Below, piece after piece: positions 10,099 to 16,403 of a stretch of DNA of 64,000 nt. Source of the DNA: Akkermansia muciniphila (GTDB lineage: Bacteria; Verrucomicrobiota; Verrucomicrobiia; Limisphaerales; F1-80-MAGS106); contig CAMBEJ010000005.1 in assembly GCA_945865375.1 (NCBI GenBank), positions 16,727 through 80,726 of the forward strand, in the 5' to 3' direction. The notes below the pieces were generated by a model. It worked only from the letters and a program-made list of their open reading frames with translations, was not told the origin of the DNA and made no database searches. The position numbers and the translations under genes were made by a program. The stretch's first letter is position 1. Each line of letters opens with the position of its first letter.

Positions 10099-12684
10099 TT
10101 ATAGTTTGATCCCTTGAATCGATCCAACGGGTCCGATCCTGCACAGCCTGAGCACCGGCGCTGCTTTTTGCTTTGAGGCCTCCAGGTCTGCTTCGATCTC
10201 AACGACCCAGTCGTTCTTGCTTTCGGGATCAACCAGCACTTGTTCAACTCGCCAGAAGCCCGGCTTTTGATTTGGAGATGGATTTACGTAGGTGTGCCGC
10301 CTGTTTCTCGCCTCCGGATCGAGGCACAGCCGCCGGTGCGAGCCATAGTACTCCTCGAAAGAACGGCGCAGGGAATCCGGACTGAAGCAATCGGCTTCCC
10401 GTTGCCCCCCCGTAACAAATTCCGAAAGCGCCAGTTCATAATCGCGGTTCTGGAGGTTCCGGAGGAATGAAAACAGGACGACGCGGATCTGGCCGACAAA
10501 TTCTTTATGATCCCGAGTGATGTCCTTCAGGGCGGCATCTGCGCCGGGAGGGCGCGCCTCAGACTTGTCGGAGGGTGCCCTGTAATCCGGGTTCCGCATG
10601 CGTTCCCATTCCTCGATGAGGCTGGAATCGACCTGCCGGATCATCGCGGCGAGGTACGCCTCCATTTCGCGCACCGTCTCGTTCTTGGCGGCTTCGGGGA
10701 TGGTCTGGAGCATCACCTTATGCACGCTGGACAGGTGGCGCAATAGCACTCCTTCCGCGCGCTGCAGCTCGTAATCCTTGATATAGTCGGAGAATGATCG
10801 GAATTCTTCGAACATTTCGCGGACGATGGATTTGGGACGAATGTTCTCCTGTCCCACCCATGGATGTTTATCCGCAAAGGCATTAAAGGTGGCGTAGACA
10901 AACTCCCGTTTCGGTTTGGGATGCTCCAGCTTTTCCAACTCATCGATCCTTTGTTGGTACTCCATCCCCTGCTGTTTCAATTCCGCCATTTTCTCGGTCT
11001 TCAGACGATCCAGTTGTTTTCGGAGGACGATTTCGGGATTTTCAAGAATCGATTCCACGAGCGTCACCAAATCCAGGGGATAATCGGGAGCGGACGGATC
11101 GAGAAGATGAATGGTATCCAGCAAGTACAGTGACAGGGTTTGGTCCAGCGAGAAATCGTCTTGAAGCGCGGCGTTCACGCGCAACGAGCCAGACGGTTCT
11201 CCGGCTGGCGGAAACTCGATGATTTTTCGATCTAGGAGGGATCGGAACAGAACCCAGGCGCGTTTGACGTGATTTTTCTTTGCCTTCGGTGTTTCGTGAG
11301 AACGAGAGATAATTCGACGCATGGCCGCGCAACCGTCACCTGTGCGGCTGAGCACATTCATGAGCATGGAATGCGTGACAGTGAAGCGGGAACCCAAGGG
11401 TTCAGGAGGGGCCCCCATGAGTCGTGCAAAGGTATTCCTGTCCCAGGCAACGAAGTTTTTTTCCGGAGGCTTTCTTTTCACGACCTTCTTCCCGTCGCGC
11501 GCGGCCTTTTCGTCGAGCTTCAAGTTCTCGACGACATGTTCAGGAGCTTGCGCGATTACCCAACCGAGATCATCGAAGCCCTTGCGGCCCGCGCGGCCTG
11601 CGATCTGGTGAAAATCACGGGCGCTTAGAATTCCGGTCTTTTGACCGTCGAACTTGCAAAGGCGCGTGAATAGGACGGTGCGGATGGGAACGTTGATGCC
11701 CATGCCCAGGGTGTCGGTTCCACAAATCACCTTGAGGAGGCCTTTCTGGGCGAGCTGTTCGACGAGAACACGATATTTTGGCAACAGGCCTGCATGGTGC
11801 AACCCAATGCCGTGTCGCAACCAGCGTTTTATATCCGGTCCGTACGGGCTGTTAAACTTGAAGCCTTCCAGAGCGGACGCGAGGGCGGCCTTCTCCTCTT
11901 TGGAGCAAACGTTGATGCTGGTGAAGTTCTGGGCGCTTTCGGCGGCGTCGTTCTGGGTAAAGTGGACCACATAAACCGGGATCTTATTCTCGCCGACGAG
12001 AGTTTCGAGTGTTTGGGCAAGAGGTGTTTCCGCGTAGGAATAATCGAGAGGCACCGGGCGAGTTTTGGAGGAGACCACGGCGGTTTCCCGACCATTCAAC
12101 CGGGTCAGCTCCTGTTCGAAAAAGGTCGTATCGCCCAGCGTGGCGGACATCAGCAGGAACCGGGTCTGGGGGAGTGTGATCAAGGGCACCTGCCAGGCCA
12201 CGCCGCGGTCCCGGTCGGAGTAGTAGTGAAACTCATCCATCACCACATCGGACACGGTTGACGAAGGGCCTTCCCGGAGCGCCATGTTTGCGAGGATTTC
12301 GGCCGTGCAGCAAAGGATGGGGGCGTTGCGGTTTACGGACGCGTCACCGGTGCTCAGGCCGACGTTCTCGGGGCCGAACTCGCGGCACAACGCCATCCAT
12401 TTCTCGTTCACAAGGGCCTTGATGGGGCAGGTGTAGACGGAGCGACGGCCCTGGGCGAGCGCCATGAAATGGAGGGCGCTGGCGACGAGGGACTTGCCGG
12501 AACCGGTAGGGGTGTTGAGGATCACGTTTTTCTCCTCGAACAATTCCAGGATTGCGTTCTCTTGAGCAGGGTAGAGCTGCATCTGCTTGTGTTGAACGGA
12601 GTCAAGGAAACGGCCAAGAAGAACGTCATTCGAGGGCGTTTGGTCGCCCGGCTTTGGAAGCAGATCGTAGAGAGTGAAGGCCAC
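10099..12684 (-). CDS. Ski2-like DEAD/DEAH-box helicase (DUF3516-type)
   Basis: A superfamily 2 helicase of 861 aa that probably unwinds RNA or structured nucleic acid. Motifs in order: Q-motif region LYPAQENAI (about 37), Walker A TPTGSGKS (about 58-65), Ia [11 protein letters not shown], motif II as [13 protein letters not shown] (about 148), motif [11 protein letters not shown] (about 178), then [33 protein letters not shown] and motif [16 protein letters not shown] long C-terminal helical region (about 420-800) follows, as in the DUF3516 group. This family is usually annotated without a defined substrate. The last codons (IQGIKL-stop) lie inside a repeat-like sequence shared with 61.1 kb, so the 3' end may have been altered by an insertion. 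Confidence 0.88.
10103..10119. repeat. REP-like end sequence at the helicase stop codon
   Basis: AGTTTGATCCCTTGAAT matches the reverse complement of 61103-61119 (AGTTTGACCCCTTGAAT) at 16 of 17 positions. It also resembles the GACCCCTT ends of the RAYT elements. It encodes the last residues of the helicase. Confidence 0.5.
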
Positions 12685-12758: not shown

Positions 12759-12787
12759 TTGACCCTGCGAAAAGCAATGGCTAGTTT
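12759..12787 (+). promoter_or_regulatory. Candidate sigma-70 promoter for ilvB
   Basis: TTGACC (12759-12764) and TAGTTT (12782-12787) are separated by 17 bases in the divergent region between the helicase and ilvB. Spacing is ideal and the -35 box is strong, but the -10 box matches only moderately. Transcription would start near 12793-12795, just before the putative leader peptide. Confidence 0.4.
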
Positions 12788-12797
12788 TGGAGCCAGC

Positions 12798-12881
12798 ATG
12801 TCCAAAATGAAACGACAAGTTTATCCGGTAAGAATTGCGGTCGTCGTAGGCGACGACGCCGGGGATCTTTGTCGCTACTGA
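12798..12881 (+). CDS. Putative ilv leader peptide
   Basis: A 27-codon ORF, or 24 codons from the second in-frame ATG at 12807, reads [27 protein letters not shown]. It contains Ile and a run of three consecutive Val codons followed by a Gly, and lies directly upstream of the acetolactate synthase gene. The Val codons fall in the left arm of a 7-bp hairpin (12840-12857, GTCGTCG/CGACGAC). A rho-independent terminator follows after the stop. This is the classical layout of amino-acid-controlled transcription attenuation, with the ribosome sensing charged tRNA-Val/Ile. It is too short for the ORF track and no homology is claimed. Confidence 0.55.
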
Positions 12882-12895
12882 TCGCGCTTTCGACA

Positions 12896-12930
12896 AAAAC
12901 CCACGGCTGGCAACGGTCGTGGGTTTTTTG
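12896..12930 (+). terminator. Intrinsic terminator/attenuator upstream of ilvB
   Basis: AACCCACG pairs with CGTGGGTT and is followed by TTTTTTG, giving a stem with a 12-nt loop and a T-run. It lies between the leader peptide stop (12881) and the ilvB start (12967), on the same strand. Here it can only serve as an attenuator, since nothing else ends there. Confidence 0.7.
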
Positions 12931-12966: not shown

Positions 12967-14841
12967 ATGAGCCAGAGCACAAGAAAAGCGGATGCCAAAC
13001 CCAGAGCCAAGAGCCGAGATGTCGAGGCGGCCTCGCCCATGCTGGGCAGCGACATCCTCGTGGTGAGCCTCGAACGCGAGGGGGTCGATACGATCTTTGC
13101 CTATCCGGGGGGGGCAAGCATGGAGATACACCAAGCGCTGACGAGGTCGAAGAAGATCCGGACGGTGTTGCCGCGGCACGAGCAAGGCGGAGCCTTCGCG
13201 GCCGAGGGGTATGCGCGCGCCTCGGGCAAGGCCGGTGTCTGCATGGCCACAAGCGGTCCTGGGGCTACCAATCTGGTCACGGGAATTGCCGACGCGTACA
13301 TGGATTCAATTCCCTTGGTGGCCATCACAGGACAAGTGCCGCAGGCGATGATTGGCCGGGGTGCGTTTCAGGAAACAGATTTTTTCGGGCTTACATTGCC
13401 GATCGTCAAACACAGTTATTTGATCACGAACATCAACGATATCCCCCGGATCGTGAAGGAGGCGTTTCATGTCGCCACCACAGGGCGCCCTGGGCCTGTC
13501 GTCATCGATCTCCCGAAGAATATTCAGCAACAGCGAAGCGTGCCTGTGTTTACGGATGAACTCAACATTCGAGGCTATCCGGACGATCCCAAGGCGGATG
13601 ACAGCAGCTTGGAGCTGATCCTGGATCTGATTGAAAAGTCGGAGCGACCCGTATTGTATGTCGGAGGGGGTGTCATCAGCGCCAATGCTTCTGATGAACT
13701 GCGGCGCTTTGTGGAGGCCACGAAAATTCCAGTCACGACGACGATCATGGGGTGTGGCGCCTTTCCGGAAACGCATCCGCTCTCGCTCCGCTGGCTGGGA
13801 ATGCACGGAACCGCGTACGCCAACTGGGCGGTCAGCGGGGAGCAGCGCAAGGAAACGGAGGGCGGCGAAACCCGCGCCGTCATGGTGGCCCCGGGAGCGG
13901 ATCTGCTCCTGGCATTCGGGGTCCGGTTTGACGACCGCGTGACGGGCAAGGTCGAAAAGTTCTGCGAACATGGAACGATCGTCCACATCGACATCGACCA
14001 GTCGGAGCTCAACAAGAACAGAATCGTCCAGCATCCCATAGTCTCAGAAATCAAGCACGCCCTCCGGCGGCTCAACAGCTTGGTGAAGTCGAGGCCGATC
14101 AAGAAAACATTCACCGCGTGGCACGAGAAAATAGGAGAGTGGAAAAAGCGCGCGCCCTTGCGATATCAGGTGAACGACGAGGTGATTCGCTCGCAACACA
14201 TGCGGGATCATCTTTCGGGGCTGGAGAGTGAAGTGATTCTTCCCCAAATGGCGATCGAGATGCTTTATGAACTGACAAAGGGAGATGCGATTATCACGAC
14301 CGGAGTGGGACAACATCAGATGTGGGCCGGGCAATACTACAAGTTTCGGTTCCCTCGGCAGTTCTTGACGAGCGCTGGCTTGGGTGCCATGGGATACGGT
14401 TATCCTGCTGCGCTGGGTGCCAAGGTGGCGTGTCCAGACAAACAGGTTGTGGATATCGACGGCGACGGATCTTTTTTGATGAACATCCAGGAACTGGCAA
14501 CGGCGCACATCGAGCAGATAGCGGCGAAGGCGATTGTCCTAAACAATCAGCATCTGGGCATGGTGGTTCAATGGGAAGACACGTTCTTCGCGGGAAACCG
14601 CGGGCACACTTATCTGGGCGACCCAAAGAATATGAAGCAAATTTATCCGGATTACATCACGATGGCGAAGAGCTTCAATGTTCCTTGTGAGAGGGTGATA
14701 TTCAAGCGCGATCTCCGCGCCGCGATGCAGCGCATGTTGGATTCCGATCAACCGTATGTGCTGGACGTCATTGTGCCTTACACAGAACACGTGTTGCCCT
14801 TTATTCCAGCCAACAAAACGGTTGCGGAGATGATTTATTGA
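12967..14841 (+). CDS. ilvB: Acetolactate synthase, large (catalytic) subunit
   Basis: Condenses two pyruvates, or pyruvate and 2-oxobutyrate, in the first common step of valine, leucine and isoleucine synthesis, using ThDP and FAD. The ATG at 12967 gives 625 aa; the tracked upstream start would lie inside the terminator. Seen: [15 protein letters not shown], the ThDP-activating Glu in [20 protein letters not shown] (about 55), central FAD domain, and the ThDP-Mg motif [15 protein letters not shown]...LNNQHLGMV (about 500-530). An unstructured basic N-terminal extension of about 30 residues precedes the fold. No ilvN regulatory subunit follows: the next gene is convergent and only 8 bases away. 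Expression is probably controlled by the upstream leader and terminator. Confidence 0.95.
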
Positions 14842-14849
14842 CGTCTGGA

Positions 14850-16403
14850 TCAGGGCTCGACCGAGCCTCGCCCTACCCGCGCTTGGCGCAATTCCTGGTG
14901 GCCCAGCCTTTTCTGTCTGCGCTGCATCCACCAGGCCACGGCGTACCCGATAGCCAACGTTCCGCCGAGGATCAGGAAAGAAACCCAGCGACTGTGATCC
15001 CAATAGGCCTTGAATCCTAGAAGCAGAAAAGCCACAGCAGCGATCGCTGTGAGGGATCGTAGGGGCCAATCGGCGCGAAAATCCCGCGGCATGAATCGGT
15101 GCTCGACCCAAAGGTTCGAGGCGCAAACAATTCCGCAGGCAAGGACACCGGTAAAAAGATTGGCGGGTGTGAGTAGGGCCACTAGGCCGGGGGGATTCTG
15201 CGCGCCGCCAAACGTTGCGATGAGTAGCGACCACGCAAGAATCGCCAAACCACCCAAGCCGCACCATCCGACAGCTAGGCGACGCAGTCGATTCGTTTTG
15301 GAAGGATCGCTTTTGAAACCCAGCGCGAGCGCCATCTCTCGAAGGATTGCGGGGGCGACCTCGATGGTTCCGTAGAGTGTTCCAAACATCGTGAGAAACG
15401 CCCCAACAAAATACAGAGGCTTCAACCAGGGGTAAGAGTCACCGACAAACTGGGCTTGCAGGGCAAGCAGGTTGGCACCTGCGGGAATCTGATGCGCGGG
15501 ACGGAGCAGCATGGAGCCGCAAACGACAAACACGCCACTAAAAACCAGCACGATGATGAAACTCAAGGTGCAGTCCACCAGTGGCGCCCGAAGCCATCGG
15601 CGCAAAAGAAGACGCCTCGAATCATCCTCACGGAGGTGGTGAATCGTGTCCACACCATCGGCGGCACCCCATTGTTTTTCACGCAAATAGGCCCCATAGG
15701 CAAGATAGTCATACCCCGAGCCACCGATGACGCCGACATAAGTCATGACCTCGACCCAGACAGGGCGATCGGAGAATTCCTTAAGACTGACAATCCAATC
15801 TGGATAAGCGAGAGGCCGGGGGATCAGGAGTCCCACGACGATGTCCCACCAGTCTGGTTTGAGGAGGAATAGCGAAACAACCACGGAGAAGAGCATGCAG
15901 ATGACAATGGCCAATTGGAGTTTCTCCAAACGTTCATAGCCGCCCTTGGAAATGAGCCATAAGACGAGAATCAATAAGCCACTACCCCAGGCGTAATGAG
16001 CGGCTCCGTTGAACGCCCCCGAGGTGCCGGTGATTCCAGCGAGCAGCGTGCCGGCTGTGCCTGCGTGGAAGGCAACCCAGATAGGGAAGGACACGATCGC
16101 GAGAATGAGGAACACCACGCAAAACCAGCCGTGGGGGCCGGGAATCGACATCCAACGTTGGAAAGGGTGTTGTCCAGTCAGGATGATTTGCCGGGCTACA
16201 CCGTAAACCAGCACCCACTTACAAAGCAGCACGAGCACAAAGTACCAAAGCAGTCGGAGGCCAAAAATAGATCCACCACGGGAGGAGAAGATCAGCTCGC
16301 CGGCACCGATGGTGAGCGAGGCGATGACAGCGCCGGGCCCGAAAAGGCCTAGCCATGTGATAGGATTTCTGGAGCACAACGCTTTGGGCAACTGAGTATT
16401 CAT
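14850..16403 (-). CDS. Nramp (SLC11)-like membrane transporter
   Basis: A 517-residue integral membrane protein with about 11-12 hydrophobic helices, related to the Nramp divalent-metal transporter superfamily. The first helix carries GPGAVIASLTIGAGE where canonical Nramps have a DPGN metal-binding motif, so the Asp and Asn ligands are replaced by Gly and Glu. GVIGGSGYDYLAYGAYLREKQW lies in the helix 6-like segment in place of the usual MPH region. A substrate other than Mn2+/Fe2+ is therefore possible. The related planctomycete/verrucomicrobial proteins are generally annotated only as Nramp-like. It converges with ilvB with almost no gap, so the two mRNAs may overlap. Confidence 0.75.
   Translation of the reverse strand: MNTQLPKALCSRNPITWLGLFGPGAVIASLTIGAGELIFSSRGGSIFGLRLLWYFVLVLLCKWVLVYGVARQIILTGQHPFQRWMSIPGPHGWFCVVFLILAIVSFPIWVAFHAGTAGTLLAGITGTSGAFNGAAHYAWGSGLLILVLWLISKGGYERLEKLQLAIVICMLFSVVVSLFLLKPDWWDIVVGLLIPRPLAYPDWIVSLKEFSDRPVWVEVMTYVGVIGGSGYDYLAYGAYLREKQWGAADGVDTIHHLREDDSRRLLLRRWLRAPLVDCTLSFIIVLVFSGVFVVCGSMLLRPAHQIPAGANLLALQAQFVGDSYPWLKPLYFVGAFLTMFGTLYGTIEVAPAILREMALALGFKSDPSKTNRLRRLAVGWCGLGGLAILAWSLLIATFGGAQNPPGLVALLTPANLFTGVLACGIVCASNLWVEHRFMPRDFRADWPLRSLTAIAAVAFLLLGFKAYWDHSRWVSFLILGGTLAIGYAVAWWMQRRQKRLGHQELRQARVGRGSVEP

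Follow-up and report, generated by a model that had tools for sequence, protein, structure and literature searches.

A valine-codon leader with the features of a transcription attenuator upstream of ilvB in Limisphaerales (Verrucomicrobiota)

The product of ilvB is the first enzyme that the valine and isoleucine pathways have in common. In the 64,000-nucleotide stretch of DNA analyzed here (the window; contig CAMBEJ010000005.1), this gene is preceded by a short open reading frame (ORF) with a run of valine codons and by an intrinsic terminator, and the question is whether these elements control ilvB and to which amino acid they respond. We propose that the ilvB leader is very probably a ribosome-mediated (leader-peptide) transcription attenuator through which valine supply would set ilvB transcription.

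A valine-rich leader ORF and a terminator upstream of ilvB

The ilvB gene (Table 1) stands alone because the next gene, encoding an Nramp-type transporter, lies on the other strand. The gene upstream, which encodes a helicase-like protein, is divergent, and therefore neither the leader ORF nor the terminator is the end of another gene and the terminator cannot serve the helicase-like gene. The preliminary description of this locus had reported a 27-codon ORF with Ile-Ala-Val-Val-Val, which is present at 12798-12881, and a hairpin over the valine codons, for which its coordinates (12840-12857) were exact. The intrinsic terminator, which it had put at 12896-12930, is also there, with the stem and T run given in Table 1. 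The succession of leader ORF, valine hairpin, terminator and acetolactate synthase gene is kept across the order. The leader RNA folds at -59.7 kcal/mol, compared with -45.7 +/- 3.9 kcal/mol for dinucleotide shuffles (z -3.6), and 0 of 200 shuffles were as good. An automated promoter and terminator scan of the locus listed neither the leader promoter nor the terminator, the latter probably because stem and T tract overlap; the terminator was recovered by a separate scan and by the alignment of relatives.

Table 1. Features of the ilvB locus in the window, with the evidence for each
Feature	Coordinates	Strand	Evidence
-35 hexamer TTGACC of the predicted leader promoter	12759..12764	+	sequence; TTGAC position in relatives
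-10 hexamer TAGTTT, 17-nt spacer	12782..12787	+	TA at spacer 16-18 in relatives
Leader peptide ORF, 27 aa (...R-I-A-V-V-V-G...), ATG 12798 to TGA 12879-12881	12798..12881	+	sequence; Val enriched in frame, 90 leaders
Segment 1, CGACAAG (codons Arg-Gln and first base of Val), pairs with 12868-12874	12813..12819	+	85.2% of alignment cells paired
Val-codon hairpin GTCGTCGTAGGCGACGAC, nested in the 1:2 structure	12840..12857	+	82.5% of cells paired; both-side changes in 5/7 pairs
Segment 2, GCCGGGGATCTTTGTCG, in the last leader codons; pairs with segment 1 or segment 3	12858..12874	+	duplex energies, pair counts
Segment 3, CGACAAAAACCCACGGC, antiterminator partner; contains terminator 5' arm	12891..12907	+	antiterminator 78.3% of cells paired
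Intrinsic terminator (segments 3:4), stem 12895-12928, six-T tract 12924-12929	12895..12929	+	96.6% of cells paired, 57 relatives; sequence almost identical throughout the order
ilvB, biosynthetic acetolactate synthase large subunit, predicted target gene; start codon ATG 12967	12967..14841	+	TIGR00118 (acolac_lg) E 3.4e-203, above cut-off
Nramp-type transporter, next gene after ilvB	14850-16403	opposite to ilvB	NF037982
DExH helicase-like protein, 861 aa, divergent from ilvB	10099-12684	-	best matches Hel308-type helicases, far below NCBIfam cut-offs

To follow these elements in relatives we fetched ilvB loci from related genomes of the order (Limisphaerales/Pedosphaerales, Verrucomicrobiota subdivision 3). 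These genomes are MAGs whose labels include Limisphaerales, Pedosphaera and Verrucomicrobia subdivision 3. Among the 91 loci with a distinct upstream sequence, 90 had an ORF leader and a terminator at a near-constant distance from the end of the ORF, and nearly all of these leaders were rich in valine codons. As in attenuators of the trp/ivbL type, the intrinsic terminator, with its conserved T tract, lies between a short ORF rich in codons for a product amino acid of the downstream enzyme and the structural gene. Typical peptides among the relatives are MFGAIRQVVLLVVVVGGDAVGSCRS and MLNNNRQVVLAVVVVVGSDAVGACRC; the valine run was absent from 2 of the 90 leaders. In 64 of 90, the end of the run was separated from the stop codon by 8-11 codons, the spacing that the switch described below would need.

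The codons of these ORFs point to a single amino acid. Across the 90 leaders, valine made up 25.7% of the residues in the reading frame, compared with 6.8% and 3.6% in the two alternative frames, while leucine was not enriched over the other frames and isoleucine only slightly; therefore the regulatory signal is predicted to be valine. All four third bases of the valine codons were used (GTC 228, GTA 180, GTT 102, GTG 70), which indicates selection on the amino acid, and the last codons of the run were also variable at this position. The peptide-coding part was otherwise variable apart from the pairing segments. The valine half of the valine/isoleucine leader that had been proposed for this locus was thus borne out, as was the expected conservation of valine codons in relatives, and its isoleucine half turned out to be minor: each peptide contains on average 6.4 Val and 0.8 Ile, and combined Val/Ile sensing was set aside on these numbers. 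The predicted regulatory residue is valine rather than valine plus isoleucine.

Mutually exclusive helices and the proposed switch

We counted pairings in an alignment of 57 leaders, using as controls the same helices slid by up to 3 columns. The paired fraction of the terminator, the antiterminator, the 1:2 helix and the valine hairpin was in each case above that of the slid versions, and changes on both sides of a pair were found in all four helices, although the nearly invariant terminator had just a single one. Segment 1 repeats the beginning of segment 3, the strand immediately ahead of the terminator, and its partner is the 3' half of segment 2. Pairing in this outer 1:2 helix fell to 36-45% when slid, and 4 of its 7 pairs showed both-side changes. 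The antiterminator (2:3) fell to 29-54% and had 18 cells with both-side changes versus 9.3 in shuffles; several of its middle pairs were often mismatched. In the hairpin over the valine codons, 11 cells had both-side changes versus 2.7 in shuffles, and this hairpin was still 73% paired when slid by +3 because of the GTC repeat. It is a probable pause or protector hairpin.

The clearest correlated change in the antiterminator converts TGTCG/CGACA into TGTTG/(T)AACA (pair 90-116 is CG in 42 leaders and UA in 7): leaders in which TGT CGN has become TGT TGA, which creates an earlier stop codon, carry AACA instead of GACA in segment 3. The duplex between segments 2 and 3 had a mean energy of -22.1 kcal/mol in the 90 leaders, compared with -11.7 kcal/mol when segment 2 was shuffled; in 75 leaders it was stronger than all 50 shuffles, and in the other 15 at least 1 of the 50 was as strong. 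With the ribosome represented by masking, the stalled state gave the antiterminator in 90 of 90 leaders and the stop-codon state gave the terminator in 88 of 90, and folding without a ribosome gave 1:2 and 3:4 each in 87 of 90. The stalled-state count is a weak test, in that 49 of the 90 leaders also reach its 8-pair threshold with a shuffled segment 2, and the duplex energy is the better one. Since segment 2 pairs with 1 or 3 and segment 3 with 2 or 4, segment 2 would choose between 1 and 3 and segment 3 between 2 and 4. The pairing that disrupts the terminator, on which the preliminary description had made its reading depend, is thus found between 12858-12874 and 12891-12907 and is conserved, and these exclusive helices together with the valine codons support the textbook attenuation architecture that it had proposed. 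On prediction and covariation, the antiterminator excludes the terminator and would be released by stalling, as in the trp/ivbL type.

In the proposed mechanism, RNA polymerase would initiate at the leader ATG or a few bases upstream of it, and a ribosome would load on the almost leaderless 5' end. With ample charged Val-tRNA, the ribosome would reach the stop codon (12879) and cover segment 2, leaving segment 3 free to pair with segment 4, and the resulting terminator would end transcription before ilvB. A shortage of Val-tRNA would make the ribosome stall at the valine codons (12840-12848) and disrupt 1:2; segment 2 would then pair with segment 3, no terminator would form, and the polymerase would read into ilvB. 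In the event of no translation, both 1:2 and 3:4 would form and transcription would stop.

Promoter position and competing explanations

Of 89 leaders, 86 had TTGAC 34-45 nt 5' of the start codon, and 84 of these 86 relatives also had a TA-type -10 with a spacer of 16-18 (17 in 66) versus 23% in shuffles; the distance from the end of the -10 to the start codon was 6-11 nt in 81 of 84. TTGAC guided the choice where several start codons were possible, and with the choice made before that it lay within 34-41 nt in 77 of 87 leaders. TTGAC was absent from that interval upstream of the first start in all 71 long ORFs of the window, a rough background that includes spurious and within-operon ORFs. 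With this near-universal geometry, transcription should begin approximately 0-4 nt before the start codon, and in the window it is predicted to begin at approximately 12794-12797, 1-4 nt 5' of the ATG. The leader mRNA is thus probably leaderless, and the promoter geometry predicts leaderless translation at a defined site.

The same attenuator could also be translated from a leadered mRNA, if the GGAG at 12789-12792, 5 nt before the window ATG, were a true Shine-Dalgarno sequence and transcription started further upstream. We regard this as unlikely, because this GGAG falls inside the predicted promoter, a Shine-Dalgarno core was found in only 5 of 90 leaders and is absent from two leaders of the same genus, and the spacing of TTGAC and TA is shared by almost all relatives. 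A leaderless valine leader with a terminator would also give rise to a small RNA and a peptide, as has been described for the trpL leader of Sinorhizobium meliloti (PMC7298713), and either product might act in trans like peTrpL/rnTrpL, with ilvB regulation being secondary. Such a role has a low probability: the peptide is not conserved outside the valine run and the pairing-constrained codons, and the conserved switch between 1:2 and 2:3 is what control in cis needs, although the two modes are not exclusive.

A strongly conserved structure with a terminator 5' of a branched-chain amino acid gene would also fit a riboswitch that binds a metabolite or ppGpp and whose aptamer happens to contain an open frame, and other bacteria do use ppGpp riboswitches to control genes of this kind (PMC10272879, PMC8632094). 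Conservation in the leader, however, tracks codons, with valine in frame and free third positions and the rest of the peptide-coding part variable outside the pairing segments, and the promoter, the valine codons or the three pairings account for every conserved block. Rfam 15 gave no family at the gathering threshold in the window or at the leaders of 12 ilvB and 3 ilvN loci, and thus no match to a riboswitch or other known aptamer model; a riboswitch is very improbable. There is next to no chance that the terminator belongs to another transcript and that the valine ORF arose by chance. The same genome does contain an unrelated, similar-looking bidirectional terminator (L113), but the gene upstream of the leader is divergent and the conservation of ORF and terminator in register across the order already refutes this explanation. 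Valine-responsive attenuation in cis is the reading that we retain for the ilvB leader.

Distribution, known systems and a second leader

When 74 genomes sampled from the order were searched with a covariance model of the leader, 70 had a match, in 68 cases with E < 1e-7. Elsewhere in the class the model matched 20 of 310 genomes of other orders, all weakly, and a phylum-wide sample of 289 genomes added almost nothing. Seven of the weak matches outside the order were inspected and consisted of 1 ilvB leader of the same design (G320, MNQVLVQLVTISVVVVSDSAAVELCA), 2 valine-type leaders before other genes, and 4 terminators only. In the sister order (around G330), no valine leader was found at the 29 readable ilvB loci (30 loci, one of them too short), and the terminators before ilvB come after an upstream gene. 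Another class of the phylum has different valine leaders before ilvB, such as VNIHRISVVVVLPRAAKAAPRG, which is accompanied by a terminator, and METGIFPEGRHVVVRGPAVSVAPRPG, for which no terminator is obvious. Almost all sampled genomes of this large and mostly uncultured order thus carry the leader, which predicts how these bacteria sense valine, and its alignment and covariance model could serve as the basis for a new Rfam family. A second match of the model in the window's own genome (G000:C106) was rejected as a leader because it is the bidirectional terminator mentioned above.

The regulatory codons of the ivbL-ilvBN attenuator of Escherichia coli are those for valine and leucine, whereas the Limisphaerales leader has valine only. 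Both systems combine a valine-rich leader peptide and an antiterminator/terminator switch with a gene for the acetolactate synthase large subunit; the Limisphaerales operon differs in the lack of ilvN and in its leaderless promoter geometry, and the sequences were compared through Rfam only. The E. coli attenuator is mentioned in PMC10272879. Known or predicted ilvB attenuators come from enterobacteria, Actinobacteria and Leptospira, and include the ilvB-OMG motif (PMC10272879, PMC1262725, PMC11857589, PMC13236596, PMC8632094). The Corynebacterium ilvB-II motif/ilvBNC attenuator (PMC10272879, PMC11857589) and the Mycobacterium and Streptomyces ilvB leaders (PMC1262725, PMC13236596) share an upstream ORF with branched-chain amino acid codons, an antiterminator and a terminator before ilvB, but have mixed Ile/Leu/Val codons and an ilvBNC operon; the ilvB1 leader of M. 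tuberculosis is, in addition, 166 nt long and not leaderless. The ilvB-OMG and Leptospira ilvB motifs are likewise RNA motifs before ilvB with upstream ORFs rich in branched-chain amino acid codons, at least three of them consecutive Val codons in Leptospira, and their function is also a prediction (PMC10272879, PMC8632094). The Limisphaerales leader differs from these two motifs in that it matched no Rfam family at gathering score, and ilvB-OMG was not among the weak matches. The S. meliloti leaderless trpL resembles the Limisphaerales leader, with its predicted transcription start, in that the 5' end of the leader mRNA is the ATG of the leader peptide, and differs in being a Trp leader of trpE(G) (PMC7298713). 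In a Streptomyces coelicolor ilvB leader, mutating the candidate regulatory codons reportedly had no effect (PMC1262725), and therefore such an architecture is no proof of valine sensing.

A survey from 2010 knew of leader-peptide attenuation, before its own finding in Firmicutes, only from Proteobacteria and Actinobacteria (PMC2965389). Searching the open-access literature, we found no description of it in Verrucomicrobiota, so that neither this literature nor Rfam 15 contradicts the initial impression that it was undocumented in this phylum. The predicted mechanism is ordinary and has strong comparative support; what is new is the putative attenuator as a family in Verrucomicrobiota.

Further support for the attenuator reading comes from the unlinked ilvN-ilvC operon. 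In the genome of the window, ilvN is on a different contig from ilvB, and in two single-contig genomes of the order the contig coordinates separate the two genes by approximately 2.5 Mb and 0.8 Mb. Of 34 ilvN-ilvC loci, 14 have a valine leader and a terminator upstream, and the promoter geometry there is that of the ilvB leader (TTGAC 36-39 nt before ATG or GTG). The peptides have 13-20 residues and contain valine, most of them being rich in it (e.g., MKPFASVLVVARVVVVG and MNLLISAVQVASVVVVD; MELSCNAWVVAVC in the window's genome, L218, G000:C123:9500-14500; others include L227, L229, L215, L235 and L240), and are accompanied by a long hairpin and a CCCGC...GCGGGTTTTT terminator. The ilvB covariance model does not detect this leader. 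In the genomes of these 14 loci, both enzyme subunits appear to be under valine attenuation from separate leaders. We consider it fairly likely that the order has a valine regulon built on two different leaderless attenuators, at ilvB and at the unlinked ilvN-ilvC, which would keep the subunits in step, and that the ilvB switch works because its Arg-Gln-Val codons copy the first seven bases of the strand before the terminator.

Several observations were made outside these two leaders. Two genomes of other orders carry valine-type leaders (MFGIAKAVVSVAVVAVIGAAVADARA in L225, approximately 880-1060, and VNLFVTVSILAKVSVLGDAVAFLGA in L220, approximately 940-1120) with a similar CCCACGGC terminator, and the gene that follows in L220 resembles a SAM methyltransferase. 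In another class (L188, L189, L194, L198, L209), conserved valine-run peptides and GC-rich hairpins lie 5' of ilvB with no obvious T tract, possibly reflecting translation attenuation or a Rho-dependent mechanism. Finally, an Acido-Lenti-1 RNA (RF01687) scored above the gathering threshold at 2142-2188 of L125 (G024), approximately 500 nt from the ilvB leader match.
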